A stretch of 64,000 bases of DNA, taken from positions 53,740 to 117,739 of the forward strand of contig NZ_QAJM01000005.1 of the NCBI RefSeq assembly GCF_003852405.1. Reading direction: 5' to 3'. Made by a program: the position numbers and the translations under genes. Shown in pieces: positions 25,624 through 42,243 of the stretch. Position 1 is the stretch's first letter; each line of letters starts with the position of its first letter. This DNA comes from Pseudomonas sp. KBW05. Lineage in GTDB: Bacteria; Pseudomonadota; Gammaproteobacteria; Pseudomonadales; Pseudomonadaceae. A model generated the notes under the pieces. The model made no database searches. It was not told the origin of the DNA and saw nothing but the letters and a program-made list of their open reading frames with translations.

Positions 25624-26526
25624 TCAAAAAGTCGGAAAACGCCCCTTCGCCGCCTCATCCCGAAAAATATCAAACAGCACTTGTGCCGCCGCCGAGAGTT
25701 CATGCCCAGGTTTGGTCAGCACGCCTATCGGCCGTTCGATCACCGGGTCGCGTAACGTAATGCAATGGGCGCCCGCCTCTTCCATCTGCCGCGCGCATAA
25801 CGCGGGCACGGCGCTGACACCCAAACCACTCGCCACCATCTTGCCCACCGTCGCCAGTTGATGGCTTTCCAGCGCCACCGGCAGCTTCATCTGCAGCGCG
25901 CCCAAATGCTCTTCCAGCATCACGCGCACGGTCGAAGGCCGTTGCAAGGTGATGAAGGGATGTTCCAGCAGGGTTTTCCAATCGACTTCGCTGCATTGCG
26001 CCAGTGGCGAATCGCCCGGCACCACGGCAATGAAACGGTCCAGATACAGCGGTGTAAACGCCAGCGAAGAACCTTCAGAGGGCTCGAACGCCACACCCAG
26101 CTCCACCTGGCGGTCGCGCACCATCTCCAGCACCTGCTCGTTGATCAAGTCATGCACGGTCACATTCACCTGAGGGTAACGCGCACGGAATATCTTCAGG
26201 ATCGGCGGCAGCAGGTTACCGGCAAACGAGGGCATCGCAGCCACCGTCACGCGCCCGCGCTGCAAGGTGAAGCGCTGGCGCAGCTCGTCTTCGGCGTTGT
26301 CCCAATCGGCAATCAACCGGCGGGCCAGAGGCAGCAGGGATTCACCTTCAGGCGTGAGCGCGACGTTGCGGGTATTACGGCTGAACAAGCGCCCGCCCAA
26401 GCCTTCTTCCAGGCCCTTGATAGTCAAGCTGAGGGCCGATTGGGAGAGGTGCAGACGCTCGCAGGCGGCGGCAAAACTCAGGCTCTGGGCCACGGCGAGA
26501 AAGGCGCGCATCTGTTTAACTGTCAT
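25624..26526 (-). CDS. LysR-family regulator of the CoA-transferase operon
   Basis: 300 residues; N-terminal helix-turn-helix [39 protein letters not shown], then a substrate-binding region with [14 protein letters not shown]. It is divergent from the scoAB-like/thiolase operon, with 133 bases between the two starts that contain a perfect dyad. It is inferred to activate that operon in response to a ketone-body or short-chain-acid metabolite. Confidence 0.9.
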
Positions 26527-35710: not shown

Positions 35711-36412
35711 ATGACAACCAAGCCTCTGTGCCTTGCGCAACGCCTGAAACGCTATTCATACATCATGTTACCGCTGTTGCTGGTGGGCGGCGCCATCGGC
35801 CTGACCCTGGAGTCGCGCACCAGCCGTGCCGAACAGGCCGACGGCGTGCAAACCCTGGTATTCCTGCGCCACGGCGAAAAACCCGCCGGAGGCCTGGGCC
35901 AACTCAATTGCCAGGGCCTGAACCGGGCGATGAACCTTGCCACGGTACTGCCGGAAAAATTCGGAAAGGCCAACTTTGTGTTCGCCGCCAACCCGACGCG
36001 TAATGTCGAGGAAGGTGAGTTCGATAATTCCTACAGCTACATTCGCCCATTGATGACCATCAGCCCCAGCGCCATCAAGCTCGGCCTGCCGGTGAACATC
36101 AAGTTTTCGGCGAACGACACCAGCGCCCTCGCCGACGAGTTGGTGGAGGACAAGTACCACAACTCCATCATCTACACCGCGTGGTCCCACGGTTATCTGC
36201 CGGAGTTGATCAACAAGGTGGCGAGTGAAGCGGTCGGCGAAAAGCACACCATCACCGACGACTGGTCCGGCAGCGACTACGACACCCTGTATGTGTTGAC
36301 GCTGACCTGGCACAACGGCAAGGCATCGCTGCTGAGCCGCAACTACAAGCAAGGTTTGAACAACGGCGAGGAGTCCTGCCCGGAGCCGACCCAGGTCAGC
36401 GCCGAATCCTGA
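35711..36412 (+). CDS. Histidine phosphatase family protein, membrane-anchored
   Basis: 233 residues from ATG 35711. A hydrophobic N-terminal segment (YSYIMLPLLLVGGAIGLTL) is a signal anchor. The RHG motif VFLRHGEKP (about residue 60) is the phosphohistidine site; a later SHG (AWSHGYLPEL) could supply the second histidine. The protein probably faces the periplasm. Substrate unknown. It marks the left border of the accessory island. Confidence 0.75.
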   Translation: MTTKPLCLAQRLKRYSYIMLPLLLVGGAIGLTLESRTSRAEQADGVQTLVFLRHGEKPAGGLGQLNCQGLNRAMNLATVLPEKFGKANFVFAANPTRNVEEGEFDNSYSYIRPLMTISPSAIKLGLPVNIKFSANDTSALADELVEDKYHNSIIYTAWSHGYLPELINKVASEAVGEKHTITDDWSGSDYDTLYVLTLTWHNGKASLLSRNYKQGLNNGEESCPEPTQVSAES

Positions 36413-36787
36413 GAGGGTTGATCGTTCCCACGCTCTGCGTGGGAACGCATCCTGTGACGCTCTGCGTCACCCCTAAATCTACAGTAGGACGCGCAGCGTC
36501 CGGTGCGGCATTCCCACGCGGTAACGGATGGGTTTTGGTGGTGAGTGGAGATCAATGTTTATTGGGTGGAGTGGGCGTGGGTGAGCGTTGGTAGTGCGCT
36601 GAAATGCACCTGTTGGTTCCAGAATTGGTCCCATTGGGTGGGGTTTTGGCCTATGCCGAAACTGCATAATCCCTTCTGCGGCGTTCTGCCGAATGAACAC
36701 CAAATCGAACAAGCGAGTGCACGGCTGATCATCTGAGGATTCGCCTGGCGAAACTGTCTACTCTGTCTTCAGAGCGAGGGTTTAGCC
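36413..36787. repeat. Palindromic repeat cluster and non-coding stretch
   Basis: At 36420-36510 three short palindromes follow each other: CGTTCCCACGCTCTGCGTGG with its closing GAACG, TGACGCTCTGCGTCA and GGACGCGCAGCGTCC. The rest up to 36787 shows no supported gene. An inverted 20-base copy of the first element is found at 41426-41445. Confidence 0.6.
36420..36439 (+). repeat. Left copy of the 20-bp island-flanking repeat
   Basis: GATCGTTCCCACGCTCTGCG; the identical 20 bases appear on the opposite strand at 41426-41445. The two copies bracket the AT-rich island. Confidence 0.75.
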
Positions 36788-37398
36788 ATGTGCGGAAGAC
36801 TTTCACAATATCGCGGGATTCACGACTTTGTAGCAGCGTTGAGTATGCCCAATGCCTTGGTGAACTCGGTGGGTGAACAGCCATCGAGCGGTTCAACGTG
36901 GCACCTACGACACAAGTGGCACTGCTGCATGTGCAGGACAACATACTGCACGCCGACTCAGTGCGCTGGGGCTGGCGACCGCGCTGGGCGAAGAAGGTGG
37001 CTCACGGACCCTTCTTCCGGGCGATATGTCCGCACCGGGCAATCACGTCAATCGATAACTGGTTTGAGTGGGTAGATGAAGGTGGCCCGAAGAAACAGCC
37101 TTACTTAATTCGTCGGCGAGATGGCGCACCTTTTTTTTGCGCGGCTATTGGTCAGCTACCAGACTCGGATGAAGGGACCATCGAACACGATGGTTTCGTG
37201 ATAATCACCGCCGATAGCGCGGGAGGCATGGTGCACATTCATGACCGAAGACCTGTGGTCTTTACGCCTGAGCTGGCCCAATAGTGGCTGGATATGGCCA
37301 CGCCGAAAGGCCGTGCGGAGCAAATGGTGCTGCATCAGGGCGAACCGTCGGATGTCTTTGAGTGGTTCAGAGTCGGCACGGCCTTGGAAATTAAGTAA
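36788..37398 (+). pseudogene. YedK-type SRAP (SOS response-associated peptidase) gene, frameshifted and stopped
   Basis: The protein starts MCGRLSQYRGIHDF, keeping the catalytic Cys2 of the SRAP family that links covalently to abasic sites. Near 36885 the frame changes: the continuing family sequence RFNVAPTTQVALLHVQ, FFRAICPHRAI, DNWFEWVDEGGPKKQPYLIRR and HIHDRRPVVF lies in another frame. A TAG at 37282-37284 then interrupts it, and the family's C-terminal part continues in frame to the TAA at 37396-37398. Two disabling changes make a functional product unlikely. Confidence 0.85.
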
Positions 37399-37658
37399 TA
37401 CGGGAGGCTGCCTGTTAGCGCCTTGGGATTGATGGTGCGCCTCATGTCACGTGCACTCAGAATCAATGTCGTAGACAGGAATGAACAAAGAGCACAGGCA
37501 CATGAGCTCAAGGCACCGTCAAAATGGATCTTGAATAGCCCAAATGGCGGAAGATACTGAGCCTAGGGCAGCGCTACCTATCAAAACACCAACCCCCTAA
37601 CAAAAACCCAAAAAAACCTAACACGAAGCCCGACTTTCTTGACAAACCACCATGCAAA
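37399..37658. other. AT-rich intergenic region before the ATPase gene
   Basis: About 260 bases without a gene. Runs of A with CCTAACA spaced between them (about 37585-37632) suggest curved DNA. TTGACA at 37638-37643 is a good -35 hexamer, but no matching -10 is visible before the proposed GTG. Confidence 0.4.
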
Positions 37659-38819
37659 GTGGAGAGTCACGCACTGAAAACACCTCGTCGGGCCTCCGCT
37701 GTGCAATCATTAGTTGAAATCCAAGGACAAGACCTAGTGTCGCTGATAAACGCGGCACTTGAAGCCAATTACACCGACGTTCGCAAGCTTGGCAGCAAGC
37801 TTGCGTCGCAGATAGGAAAATCTGACCTCGGGACGGCTCAGCAAATCAAATCTTCACTCAAAAAGCGCGGAGTACCCTTACGCACTTCAGGCTACGTTGA
37901 GACCCTACCCACGGACCCTAAATCCAGAGTACCACTGGTAGAAGAGCAGCCTTGGCCTGTCACGCCTGTTTTTCTTGAGGATAACCTGAAATCCGTATTC
38001 GAAGCATTTATTAGCGACATAAAAAACCATGATAAATTAGCTGCGCACGGACTTACTGGAAAGTCGAATCTACTAATGTCGGGCCCTCCTGGAACGGGAA
38101 AGACACTAGTTGCTGGGCATATCGCCGCCCAACTCGGCCTTCCTTTGTATATTGTCAGATTGGACTCTCTTGTATCCTCGTTACTCGGCGATACAGCAAA
38201 AAACATTAGAAATGTTTTTGACTATGTTCCACACATGGGTGGGGTCCTGTTTTTAGATGAGTTTGATGCTGTAGCCAAAGTCCGCGACGACAAGCATGAA
38301 CTTGGAGAATTAAAGCGCGTTGTCAATACGCTAATCCAGGCAATTGACGCTCTAGACGACAAAGCAATAGTAATCGCAGCCACCAATCACTCAGAACTTC
38401 TTGACAGAGCAATATGGCGTCGATTCCCATATAAAATGCATTTCTCCCTACCCTCTTCTGACTTGAAAAAACATCTATGGGATCACTTCCTTTTTCAAGA
38501 TAGCGGTGTAGAACAGGATCTTAGCACTCTTGCCAAACTTTCAAGAACTCTCTCAGGCGCTGACATTGAGTCAATCGCTCTCGCGACTCGAAGAGAATCA
38601 ATTATTAACGACACCCCTTTAAATACGCATAACGCATATTTATCAATTCTCGAACTAGAGATGAGAAGCATATCATCTCAAAGCACGAACCATGACTTTT
38701 CCGACAAAAAAAATACTGCTAAATTCTTACACTCTAACTACGGTTTATCGCAGGCAGAAGTGGGGAAACTCCTCAATTTAAGCAGACAAACCATTGCTGG
38801 CTACCTCAAGGAAAGATGA
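37659..38819 (+). CDS. ietA: AAA+ ATPase, IetA-like component of an ATPase-subtilase defence/toxin-antitoxin system
   Basis: 386 residues from GTG 37659; there is no clear ribosome site, so the start is uncertain and a later GTG near 37702 is possible. Walker A GPPGTGKT is at residues 142-149, Walker B VLFLDEFD at 196-203, sensor 1 ATNH at 240-243 and arginine-finger region AIWRRFPYK at 251-259. The C-terminal 30 residues, SNYGLSQAEVGKLLNLSRQT followed by IAGYLKER, look like a helix-turn-helix. It is followed three bases later by a subtilisin-like protease gene. The pair matches IetA-IetS, described as a plasmid-stabilising toxin-antitoxin pair (IetA as antitoxin) and reported as anti-phage. 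The genes are far more AT-rich than their surroundings. Confidence 0.8.
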   Translation: MESHALKTPRRASAVQSLVEIQGQDLVSLINAALEANYTDVRKLGSKLASQIGKSDLGTAQQIKSSLKKRGVPLRTSGYVETLPTDPKSRVPLVEEQPWPVTPVFLEDNLKSVFEAFISDIKNHDKLAAHGLTGKSNLLMSGPPGTGKTLVAGHIAAQLGLPLYIVRLDSLVSSLLGDTAKNIRNVFDYVPHMGGVLFLDEFDAVAKVRDDKHELGELKRVVNTLIQAIDALDDKAIVIAATNHSELLDRAIWRRFPYKMHFSLPSSDLKKHLWDHFLFQDSGVEQDLSTLAKLSRTLSGADIESIALATRRESIINDTPLNTHNAYLSILELEMRSISSQSTNHDFSDKKNTAKFLHSNYGLSQAEVGKLLNLSRQTIAGYLKER

Positions 38820-38822
38820 AAA

Positions 38823-41054
38823 ATGAGCTCAGGGAAGCCTCTAATCAACCCAGTGTTGAAATTTATGCGACTCGCCTCTCCCGCCCCTGTACCTGGAGGA
38901 GGAAAAAATGCTAAAAGCATTGTTCTTGCTCGCTTACAGTCTCAACAAGAGAAGCTTTCCGCAAGCATCTATGACTTGGCCAAAAGACCAAAAATTGAGC
39001 ACGAGGGCCTTACGCATCTTATCGCAAGAATGTTTGACGACTCCCACGCCCCTTCTTGGACTCCCAGCGATGTATTCAACTCAAATTCCGGGTGCCGAGT
39101 CATTGCACCGGCATACGATGGCTATTTAATAGAAGTCAAATCATCCGAACTAGAGGCTTTAGCCAAAAATATAAAATACGCTAAAACCATTCATGAAAAA
39201 GTTGATATTTCAAGAGTTAGCGAAGTAGATCTATTCGACTCAAAAGAAGTATCAAGAAATTTCTCAACAACTCGCCTATGGAAAGAGTCCAGAGAAAATA
39301 ATGGCGATGGGTACTTCAATGTATGGCTGCTACCATTTACGAACAAAAAATCTCGTGAGTCAGTAGCCAAAACCCTTCGTTCCTTACATGAAAAACACAA
39401 ATTGGGCTTTGGCGACATTGAATTCTCCACCAGCCCTGCAATAGCGGAAGAAGACCAGCTAACGCAAGAGGACTCCGATAATTATTTCCTTGAGAACCTG
39501 ATAGAAAACTATCTTGCTGATGGAAATGCCATTGCGTCTATGCAGATACGCTCGGAGGAAGCATTACAGGACCTTATCGGATCAGGCTCTGTATATCGTG
39601 TTGACCCCGTGGCTCGCGTAGGGGCTGTATCCACACCCGGCGAGGGTGTTGAGCCAACGCCCCCGTCACACAAAGATAACCTGCCGACTGTCCTGATTAT
39701 CGACGGGGGAACTAATGCGCCTAGCTACAAACACCTACAAACATCAAAAGTTAACTTTTTAGTTAATGACTATATCGCTGACCTCAAGCACGGCAATCAA
39801 GTCACCTCACTGATTTGCCATGCTCACGCCTGGAACAATAACCGCTCGCTACCGCAACTAAACTGTAAATACATTTCAGCGCAAGCAATAGCAAAAAGAT
39901 CAGCAACAAAATCACCCTCTCTAAATCAACTCATTTCTTACCTTAAGGTAATCGCAACAGAAACAACAGGCCTTTCAAGGGTCTGGAACATGTCATTCAA
40001 TCAAGAAAAACCATCTCTTTCAAGAAGTGAAGTTAGCTACCTTGGCCATGAGCTGAGTAAAATCGCTAGGGAGCATAATATCCTACCAATAATATCTATA
40101 GGAAACGCTCTAGACCTTAATGATAGAACCTTGTGCCCTCCAGCAGACTGTGAGGCGGCGCTTACCGTCAGCGGCCGTATTTCCAACAAAGACGGGACTC
40201 CCGGCTCAGCATGCGCAGTGAGCCTCAAAGGCCCTGCTCCCGCCGGAATGATAAAACCTGATCTTTCGTGGTTCTCAACTTTGCGCATGATTGGAGGAGT
40301 TGTAGAGACAGGAACAAGCTTCAGTACGCCACTGGTTTCGTCTCTTGCAGCTCACACCTTCAATAATTTGAAAGACCCTACTCCCGACTTAGTAAGAGCG
40401 CTGCTAATTAACACCTCTGAACTTCACACTCATGACCAGTCTCTCGGCTGGGGCACGCCGTGGACCGAGAATAGCCTTCCGTGGATGTGCGAAACAGGAG
40501 CGGTTACACTCGCGTGGACGGCAAAGATCAAACCAGGATTCTCTTATTACTGGAATGACATACCAATTCCCTCTGATATGATCGACGGGCAAAAGCTATC
40601 AGGCACTATCGCCCTGACAGCCATTTTAAAACCTGTTGTCTCGAATTTGACCGGACCAAATTATTTCTCCACCAGACTTCAGGTAGCATTACAGGGCACA
40701 ACCAGGACTGGTAAAACAGAGAACCTCCTCGGCTCAATGAAAGAGCATAAGGAAAAAGAACTGACTGCACGCGAAGATCTCGCCAAGTGGAGCCCTATCA
40801 GAAGGCACATAAAGCATTTCCCTTCTAAGATCCTCGGCAAAACCACTGCAAGACTTCACGCTCGCATATTCGCTCGTGACTTATATCAATTCCAAATGGC
40901 ACATCACTCCGAGCTCGGAGAGCAAGAGGTCGCCTTCGTTCTCACCTTCAAAACGGACAAGGACAACGAAGACATTTACAACAACATGATTTCTAAACTT
41001 GGAACAGATGTAGAAAGCGCAACAATAGAACAGAATATCAACATTGAAGTTTAG
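38823..41054 (+). CDS. ietS: Subtilisin-like (S8) serine protease, IetS-like component
   Basis: 743 residues, no signal peptide, so probably cytoplasmic. The S8 triad is readable: Asp294 in VLIIDGGTN, His323 in LKHGNQVTSLICH and Ser499 in ETGTSFSTPLVSS; the oxyanion-hole Asn is likely Asn428 in ISIGNAL. About 285 residues precede the protease domain and about 200 follow it, both without recognised domains and plausible sites for target recognition or for control by the ATPase. Intracellular subtilases paired with an AAA ATPase are the IetAS arrangement, where the protease is the toxic effector. A strong terminator follows. Confidence 0.82.
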   Translation: MSSGKPLINPVLKFMRLASPAPVPGGGKNAKSIVLARLQSQQEKLSASIYDLAKRPKIEHEGLTHLIARMFDDSHAPSWTPSDVFNSNSGCRVIAPAYDGYLIEVKSSELEALAKNIKYAKTIHEKVDISRVSEVDLFDSKEVSRNFSTTRLWKESRENNGDGYFNVWLLPFTNKKSRESVAKTLRSLHEKHKLGFGDIEFSTSPAIAEEDQLTQEDSDNYFLENLIENYLADGNAIASMQIRSEEALQDLIGSGSVYRVDPVARVGAVSTPGEGVEPTPPSHKDNLPTVLIIDGGTNAPSYKHLQTSKVNFLVNDYIADLKHGNQVTSLICHAHAWNNNRSLPQLNCKYISAQAIAKRSATKSPSLNQLISYLKVIATETTGLSRVWNMSFNQEKPSLSRSEVSYLGHELSKIAREHNILPIISIGNALDLNDRTLCPPADCEAALTVSGRISNKDGTPGSACAVSLKGPAPAGMIKPDLSWFSTLRMIGGVVETGTSFSTPLVSSLAAHTFNNLKDPTPDLVRALLINTSELHTHDQSLGWGTPWTENSLPWMCETGAVTLAWTAKIKPGFSYYWNDIPIPSDMIDGQKLSGTIALTAILKPVVSNLTGPNYFSTRLQVALQGTTRTGKTENLLGSMKEHKEKELTAREDLAKWSPIRRHIKHFPSKILGKTTARLHARIFARDLYQFQMAHHSELGEQEVAFVLTFKTDKDNEDIYNNMISKLGTDVESATIEQNINIEV

Positions 41055-41083
41055 CAAATATAGTCATATTTAGCCTTGATCAA

Positions 41084-41113
41084 AATAATACCCGCAGAAT
41101 AGCGGGTATTATT
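41084..41113 (+). terminator. Terminator of the ATPase-protease pair
   Basis: A 12-bp perfect stem, AATAATACCCGC (41084-41095) with GCGGGTATTATT (41102-41113), six-base loop, followed by TATTC. Confidence 0.85.
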
Positions 41114-41132
41114 TATTCAAATAAGCCACGCG

Positions 41133-41411
41133 CTATTCGGGCTTTCCTTCAAGAAATGATACTACCCCCGTCTCTCTTACCTGCGCTCGCAGTCGTGTGC
41201 CGATACTGCTGGTTTCCAGTTGAACAAAGTTTGCCACCATCGCACAGTCATGCATGAGTAGCTCAGTAATGTCGAACAGAATGGCGTTCTCTGGGTTGTT
41301 CGCGCCATCAGCAGCAGGGTTGATCTGCTCCTGCTCATCGCCTGTTACCTTCCTGACTGGCGGATGGCGGCACTGATCTGCAGCAGTAGTCGGCACGCCC
41401 AGTCTGAACAA
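41133..41411 (-). CDS. Small hypothetical protein, possible fragment
   Basis: Up to 92 residues if a TTG at 41411 is used; no ribosome site is visible. The C-terminal half (LFDITELLMHDCAMVANFVQLETSS) has the look of small helical Pseudomonas proteins of unknown function, while the first 35 residues are unconvincing. It may be a decayed gene at the right edge of the island. Confidence 0.35.
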   Translation of the reverse strand: MFRLGVPTTAADQCRHPPVRKVTGDEQEQINPAADGANNPENAILFDITELLMHDCAMVANFVQLETSSIGTRLRAQVRETGVVSFLEGKPE

Positions 41412-41425
41412 TGGAAAGAATTACC

Positions 41426-41445
41426 CGCAGAGCGTGGGAACGATC
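41426..41445 (-). repeat. Right copy of the 20-bp island-flanking repeat
   Basis: Reverse complement of GATCGTTCCCACGCTCTGCG, identical to 36420-36439. The matching second palindrome arm present on the left is missing here. Confidence 0.75.
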
Positions 41446-41484
41446 AGGCCGGCTGCGCTCCTGGGAGCGCAGCCGGCCTTTGTG
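41446..41484. terminator. Strong hairpin at the 3' end of terC
   Basis: GGCCGGCTGCGCTCC and GAGCGCAGCCGGCC form a 14-bp GC-rich stem with a very short loop, beginning near 41447; TTTGTGTTT follows on the plus strand. It lies just beyond the stop of terC on the minus strand. Confidence 0.75.
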
Positions 41485-41493
41485 TTTCAGCGA

Positions 41494-42243
41494 TTACTGC
41501 CGGGCAGCAAGCAAACGCTTGTGACGGTTGCGTCGGGCGATGTTCAAGCACTCGATCGCCGCCGAGAACGCCATGGCCGCGTACACGTAGCCTTTCGGTA
41601 CATGGGCGCCGAAGCCTTCGGCGATCAACGTCATGCCGATCATGATCAGGAAGCCCAGGGCCAGCATCACCACGGTCGGGTTGTCGTTGATGAACTTGGC
41701 CAGCGGTTCGGCCGCCACCAGCATCACGATCACCGAGGTCACCACGGCGATGATCATGATCGGCAAGTGCTCGGTCATGCCCACGGCGGTAATGATGCTG
41801 TCGATGGAAAACACCAGGTCCAGCAACAGGATCTGCCCGATGGCCGCCGCGAAACCGATGGCCACTGTATTGCCGACGCTGGCCTTCTCCTCGGGCTCCG
41901 GGTCCATGCTGTGATGGATCTCGGTGGTGGCCTTCCATACCAGGAACAGGCCGCCGGCGATCAGGATCATGTCCTTCCACGAGAACGCCTGGCCGAACAC
42001 TTCGAACACCGGCGCCGTCAATTGCACGATGAACGCGATGGTGCTCAACAGGCCCAGGCGCAACACCAGCGCCATGCTGATACCGATGCGCCGCGCCTTG
42101 GCCCGGTGCTGCTCGGGCAGCTTGTTGGTGAGGATCGAGATAAAGATCAGGTTATCGATGCCCAGCACGATCTCCATGACGATCAAGGTCGCCAGGGCGA
42201 CCCAGGCAGTGGGGCTGGCGGCCAGTTGTAAAAGGTAATCCAT
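41494..42243 (-). CDS. TerC-family integral membrane protein
   Basis: 249 residues with about seven helices. The TerC pattern is clear: [16 protein letters not shown] in helix 1-2 and [16 protein letters not shown] in the middle, each with the conserved acidic residues, then [20 protein letters not shown]. Members are linked to tellurite resistance or manganese export and protein metalation. A small lipoprotein gene lies 28 bases upstream and may be in the same transcript. Confidence 0.9.

Follow-up and report, generated by a model that had tools for sequence, protein, structure and literature searches.

What is a pair of AT-rich genes, encoding an ATPase of the AAA family and a subtilisin-like protease, doing in a Pseudomonas chromosome, and how did it come to be there? 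The pair, ietA-ietS, lies at positions 37659 to 41054 of the stretch of Pseudomonas sp. KBW05 DNA analyzed here (the window, 64,000 nucleotides (nt); assembly GCF_003852405.1, contig NZ_QAJM01000005.1, positions 53,740 to 117,739). By its sequence, it is an intact member of the known IetAS type and belongs to a distinct clade. An earlier note on this DNA had taken it for a Pseudomonas relative of IetA/IetS and had named a search against defence models as one check; in that search, IetA and IetS models are the top matches and the similarity is present. The relationship stands with PADLOC models as the best matches, but the pair is no NCBIfam equivalog and falls in a divergent clade in which many members are carried by phages.

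The ietA-ietS pair and its family

The genes and their associated signals are as follows.

37659..38819, + strand: ietA, AAA ATPase, 386 amino acids as called, GTG start uncertain (37659, 37701 or 37737); PADLOC IetA 352 bits, phrog_3757 360 bits
38823..41054, + strand: ietS, intracellular subtilase, 743 amino acids, ATG start; PADLOC IetS 224 bits, Pfam Peptidase_S8 expect value (E) 1.6e-16, phrog_3964 445 bits
38808..38815, + strand: Shine-Dalgarno-like sequence AAGGAAAG for ietS, recognized by sequence within the 3' end of ietA
41083..41114, + strand: hairpin 3' of ietS, probable terminator; folding z -6.2, absent from the pattern-scan list

The best defence-model matches are PADLOC IetA (E 9.9e-106) and PADLOC IetS (E 8.1e-67), for which the PADLOC search tool supplies no curated cut-off. 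The pair resembles IetAS (PADLOC PDLC02196/PDLC02197; NCBIfam IteA/IteS) in gene order, in the combination of an AAA ATPase with an S8 subtilase, in protein lengths and catalytic residues, and in model matches that run over nearly the whole length. On the NCBIfam models, IetA scores 323.8 bits (IteA, NF042959; cut-off 510) and IetS 179.5 bits (IteS, NF042956; cut-off 900), while a pair from Acidovorax that is annotated iteA/iteS (L020) scores 570.4 and 1058.4 bits. The window pair differs from this NCBIfam-type pair in sequence (36% identity for IetA and 22% for IetS) and in its separate IetS clade. The best whole-length models are phrog_3757 (360.1 bits, IetA residues 22-385 of 386) and phrog_3964 (444.8 bits, IetS residues 18-742 of 743), both annotated as 'unknown function' in PHROGs. 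Because the window proteins match both the PADLOC Iet models and the PHROG models, these two PHROG families are read as an IetAS clade.

In a maximum likelihood tree of 32 IetS rows, the window protein and 18 others form a clade with support of 100/100; a branch of length 2.26 separates it from the rows holding NCBIfam-type IteS. The tree carries a long-branch warning, so only the clade itself is relied on, and its make-up partly mirrors where searches were made. Inside the clade, window IetS groups with L072, L005, L002 and L076 (96/90), of which L072 and L076 are viral contigs. The two genes appear to have been inherited together. In the 19 gene pairs compared, the distance matrices of IetA and IetS correlate with r=0.967 and none of 5000 permutations gives so high a value; near-duplicate rows and two very divergent rows inflate the figure. 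In 17 of the 19 pairs no more than five bases, overlaps counted, separate the two genes. The exceptions are L003 (221 bases, broken IetS frame) and L018 (181 bases, late annotated IetS start).

In the window, both genes are on the + strand, three bases apart, with both frames open, and back to back they probably form one operon. The GC content of the pair is 0.46 compared with 0.61 for the remaining window, which together with the exact coordinates bears out the earlier description of adjacent AT-rich genes on one strand. GC content at third codon positions is 0.42 in ietA and 0.45 in ietS and at least 0.60 in 41 of the 51 other window open reading frames (ORFs; picked greedily by length), with one small ORF at 25700 likewise low (0.43). 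The 76 nt 3' of ietS have a folding energy of -20.7 kcal/mol and contain a 13-bp stem at 41083-41114; shuffles of the stretch average -7.0, and 0 of 200 are equally stable. Hence a strong hairpin does lie where a 12-bp terminator had been proposed, but its tail is T-poor with no clean T-run and a terminator pattern scan omits it. Relatives point to an ietA start nearer GTG 37701 or 37737 than the called GTG 37659, and among these candidates only 37737 has a well-spaced Shine-Dalgarno-like AAGGA. Promoter-like sites were sought from 37300 to ietA and none was found, the number of sites being no higher than in shuffles.

The protease and the ATPase

The recognizable parts of the two proteins map to the window as follows.

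38910..39617, + strand: N-terminal alpha/beta region of IetS, residues ~30-265, no recognized Pfam family; ~160-262 possibly prodomain-like
39678..40487, + strand: subtilase catalytic domain, residues ~286-555; Asp294 at 39702-39704, His323 at 39789-39791, Ser499 at 40317-40319
40488..41027, + strand: beta-rich domain at the C-terminus of IetS, residues ~556-735; alignable with the second domain of KP-43/SubHal
37941..38603, + strand: AAA module of IetA, residues ~95-315; pore loop 1 is SSLLG, lacking an aromatic residue
38706..38810, + strand: probable C-terminal helix-turn-helix of IetA, residues ~350-384; matched by helix-turn-helix profiles

The catalytic residues of IetS are D294 in IIDGG, H323 in KHGNQ and S499 in GTSFSTP, with N428 as the oxyanion Asn. 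All four are invariant in the 17 aligned IetS rows (window included), and the triad is intact at exactly the positions first assigned to it. The subtilases KP-43, SubHal and Tk-SP are secreted enzymes, and the catalytic and C-terminal domains of IetS align with them over model residues 286-709. IetS differs from them by its ATPase partner and by the N-terminal ~285 residues that precede its catalytic domain; its N-terminus, judged by eye, has no long hydrophobic stretch. Both flanks of the catalytic domain had been described as matching no motif, which is right for the N-terminal region, where no Pfam family is found, but not for the C-terminal ~200 residues, which resemble the second domain of KP-43/SubHal. 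A sequence search for a solved relative of IetS gave nothing beyond one chance-level match (E 0.075). A fold search of BFVD with IetS gave seven matches at E<=0.001, the top one a subtilase and several nameless, and the lower-ranked matches include subtilases and many capsid or coat proteins. No solved fold stood out for IetS residues 1-140 or for the N-terminal helices of IetA in fold searches, which hardly probe those parts.

IetA contains Walker A (GPPGTGKT), Walker B (FLDEFD), the sensor ATNH and RRF, which holds the Arg fingers, and Pfam AAA matches it with an E of 2e-29. The motifs that had been reported as intact are thus all found, and the seven positions checked (148, 149, 200, 201, 243, 254 and 255) are invariant in 16 of 16 aligned rows, window included. 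Unlike Vps4/spastin/katanin, PAN and p97, IetA has no aromatic residue in pore loop 1 and carries an extra C-terminal helix-turn-helix. In the pore-loop alignment, SLLG of IetA stands against MWFG of p97 D2; p97 D1 has KLAG. Since the aromatic residue is missing, a role as a switch or sensor is preferred over substrate threading. The helix-turn-helix is probable: Pfam HTH_3 matches window IetA with an E of 0.0033, under the family cut-off, and the HTH_11 profile matches 12 of 16 IetA rows at E<=0.05.

Carriers, phage neighbours and the chromosomal site

The clade is spread over temperate phages, plasmids (half of the records rhizobial) and a few chromosomes. A single-protein scan of GTDB species genomes found two loci, in Pseudomonas serbica (L002) and Pseudomonas frederiksbergensis (L003). 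With the own genome counted each time, matches occur in 12 of 399 same-genus genomes at E<=0.001 (4 of 399 at E<1e-100), in 13 of 293 order-level genomes at E<=0.001 and in 5 of 398 phylum-level genomes at E<=1e-30. Relatives occur in 26 plasmid records, 13 of them from Rhizobium, Agrobacterium or Bradyrhizobium and 12 covering at least 80% of the query. A collection of phage records gave six matches at 23-25% identity, so that close relatives are not in that collection, and relatives with 41-53% identity occur on 15 viral contigs. Fourteen of these contigs have an IetA frame immediately 5' of IetS; the available DNA of L080 shows no more than the C-terminal end of a frame resembling IetA.

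PHROG scans of 18 neighbouring proteins from 6 of the 15 viral contigs place all of them in named families. These are replication initiation, DnaC-/P-like loaders, a transcriptional activator, NinB, HNH endonucleases and RusA, and further a Q-like antiterminator, a methyltransferase, an endolysin, an integrase, an exonuclease and a terminase. When 17 of the 18 proteins were used as queries on the 15 viral contigs, seven contigs showed a replication gene upstream of the pair and NinB, RusA or HNH genes downstream. The upstream genes differ among them.

L075 and L077: O-/P-like replication genes
L078, L079 and L083: DnaC-like loader
L082 and L085: another initiator

L086, which is similar to L082, has an activator upstream and an HNH gene downstream and nothing else of the query set, and L073, L074 and L081 have other phage genes close to the pair. 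In L074, a DNA methyltransferase gene lies immediately 3' of the pair (L074:7502-8599). Near the P. serbica pair are an S24 repressor (upstream) and DnaT and phage antirepressor domains. IetAS itself and IetAS on phages are already published. In the literature searches made here, no equation of phrog_3757/phrog_3964 with IetAS and no mention of a place beside phage replication genes was encountered.

Several copies are broken or stand among other mobile genes. IetS is split into two frames in viral contig L083 (4977-7243) and is broken by an in-frame stop in P. frederiksbergensis (L003:5994-8261), the adjoining ietA frame being open in both cases; L004, from the same genus, is 100% identical to L003 over 5,049 bases. 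On Acidovorax plasmid p1-T1, the NCBIfam-type iteAS (L020:6161-7270) lies between a site-specific integrase gene and a Shedu nuclease gene with IS21 copies flanking, a setting that is a small defence island. On pBPHY02 of Paraburkholderia phymatum (L018:4938-9980), the IetAS pair is followed by another gene annotated as an AAA family ATPase, with tyrosine recombinase genes on both sides.

The chromosomal site was compared in 18 same-genus loci around the neighbouring TerC gene, using alignments of at least 60 bases. Two loci (G017, which is L052, and G004, which is L053) share both flanks, matching the window up to 36422 and again from 41446-41448; the remaining 16 match at TerC alone. Three features lie in or at the edges of the differing segment.

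36419..36439, + strand: left arm of a 21-bp perfect inverted repeat (a repetitive extragenic palindromic, or REP-type, palindrome), from a repeat search; the L052/L053 alignment stops at 36422
41426..41446, - strand: right arm of the 21-bp inverted repeat, from the repeat search; the L052/L053 alignment resumes at 41446-41448
36788..37284, + strand: degenerate gene for an SRAP (SOS-response-associated peptidase) protein, split between two reading frames; the 36898-37284 piece matches Pfam SRAP with an E of 3.8e-23 (profile 35-174 of 214), the 36788 piece has no match

In place of 36422-41446, the two related loci carry selD, selU (mnmH) and a permease-like gene (L052:799-4204 and L053:798-4228), names that are the author's reading of translations and not a database result. 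The genome of the window has no selU match, and the same query matches 13 of 15 other genomes of the genus; it also has no selD match, in a search that had no positive control. Because neither gene is matched, this Pseudomonas may have lost tRNA 2-selenouridine synthesis. The 21-bp repeat brackets the segment that differs from L052 and L053, and neither of these has it in the sequence inspected around the junctions. It may nevertheless be a bystander since the REP-type palindrome occurs genome-wide, with 14 copies at up to two mismatches and none of the reversed control. An excision element with direct border repeats was rejected, as a repeat search of 36300-41600 gave the inverted repeat only. 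The degenerate SRAP gene, upstream of ietA and outside the pair, is part of the same differing segment. Ten nearby ORFs contain no prophage or plasmid genes by Pfam, an origin rejected for the present site and not for its history, and the 64-kb window contains no tRNA. A segment with the SRAP fragment and ietAS thus stands in place of other content at this site.

A proposed function and its rivals

The reading preferred here, and held to be fairly probable as a whole, is that the pair is an abortive-infection or toxin-antitoxin module that reached this chromosome by horizontal transfer. The transfer is proposed because of the low GC content, the patchy occurrence (4 of 399 genus genomes) and the different site content in two same-genus genomes. 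IetS would be the toxic effector protease and IetA, probably assembled into a ring, would restrain it until a phage trigger arrives; IetS might in addition be controlled through its own N-terminal domain, and the helix-turn-helix of IetA may have a part in this. A signal from the invading phage, most plausibly its replication machinery, would break the restraint, and the freed protease would cleave cell and/or phage proteins so that the infected cell halts before phage release. The structure of the genes, their family and clade, the catalytic residues, the co-inheritance, the linkage of relatives to phages and the site difference are direct observations, while protease toxicity, ATPase neutralization, the association with phage resistance and the replication trigger come from papers on relatives.

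The pair shares its two protein types with SgiAT of Salmonella Genomic Island 1 and with a mycoplasma AAA/subtilisin pair and differs from them in its carriers. The SgiT protease is described as toxic in Escherichia coli and rescued by the SgiA ATPase (PMC5006074), and the mycoplasma pair as a toxin-antitoxin with a toxic protease and ATPase rescue (PMC8562856). ietAS is placed among the systems that core replication proteins of phages activate (PMC10732053, citing Stokar-Avihail 2023), is likewise listed as activated by phage replication proteins (PMC10286901) and is classed under abortive infection or dormancy (PMC10855318). IetAS on Pf phage has a statistical tie to phage resistance (PMC11878078), and one enterotoxigenic E. 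coli strain is reported to have IetAS in a predicted prophage (PMC11267873).

Several observations weigh against this assignment. The pair misses both NCBIfam equivalog cut-offs and is not a member of those equivalogs, identity to NCBIfam-type pairs being just 36% for IetA (L020) and 20-22% for IetS (L007 and L020). The structure model of IetS has low confidence near the active site (residues 295-344, 427-441 and 464-500), and the missing pore-loop aromatic residue speaks against IetA as a classic unfoldase. The seven contigs with an upstream replication gene represent three lambda-like phage kinds, not seven independent cases, and four of the 15 contigs (L072, L076, L080 and L084) have no match to the 17 phage-gene queries. 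Support for the function comes from relatives and not from the window pair or its clade, and no lysogens of the IetAS-carrying Pf phage were obtained in the strains tried, so the link to resistance there is statistical only (PMC11878078).

If the pair were mainly an addiction cassette that stabilizes its carrier element, the chromosomal copy would be a remnant without any part in defence. Yamamoto 2009, by its title, presented the pTiC58 pair as a system for plasmid stability, SgiAT promotes maintenance of its island (PMC5006074), and relatives occur on the plasmids counted above. In plasmid searches for the pTiC58 IetS, none of the matches listed was recognizable as pTiC58, but the rows carry organism and not plasmid names. 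The window copy, however, is chromosomal, with flanks syntenic with a 6.7-Mb single contig (L052), and 0 of 10 nearby ORFs match plasmid or phage families. Relatives are linked to phages, and ietAS is tied to phage resistance and replication triggers (PMC11878078, PMC10732053). SgiAT under its own promoter caused no post-segregational killing (PMC5006074), a result that counts against addiction as well as against the preferred module, and addiction as the main role is considered unlikely. Still less likely is a role that, in phage carriers, serves the phage itself: the protease and the helix-turn-helix-bearing ATPase would control lysogeny, the timing of replication or the takeover of the host, for instance through cleavage of a repressor or a host protein. 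The replication-pair-NinB/RusA/HNH order seen in seven lambda-like contigs out of 15, the C-terminal helix-turn-helix and the S24 repressor upstream of the P. serbica pair are consistent with such a role, but the neighbours vary by phage type and clade members also occur outside recognizable phages, as in this chromosome, P. frederiksbergensis L003 and rhizobial plasmids.

Loss of expression or activity of the chromosomal copy is very improbable. The region from 37300 to ietA yielded no promoter-like site, the ietA start is ambiguous, the adjoining SRAP gene is degenerate and other clade copies are broken (L083 and L003/L004); yet both frames are open, all catalytic residues are kept, a good Shine-Dalgarno sequence precedes ietS and a strong terminator-like hairpin follows it. 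A more specific form of the defence reading, tentative and rather doubtful, is that the clade is a prophage-borne defence wired into the phage replication operon. The ATPase would monitor replication proteins, tolerate those of the resident phage (through neighbouring genes or timing) and free the protease on those of a rival, and the Pseudomonas copy would have settled on the chromosome.

According to papers from 2023 to 2025, ietAS has no known mechanism (PMC9958689, PMC11878078, PMC11267873), and two of these call it undescribed (PMC9958689, PMC11267873). The analysis supplies domain limits for the protease and the prediction that an ATPase with no aromatic pore loop acts as a switch and not as a threader. 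The locus links a divergent IetAS clade to two PHROG families with no assigned function and, through its relatives, to a replication-gene neighbourhood in three kinds of phage. Because ietAS is listed as triggered by phage replication proteins (PMC10732053), the replication-side position opens both the trigger and self-tolerance to direct tests. If the prophage-borne defence is real, phrog_3757 and phrog_3964 would be a superinfection-defence module hidden among the 'unknown' genes of phages.

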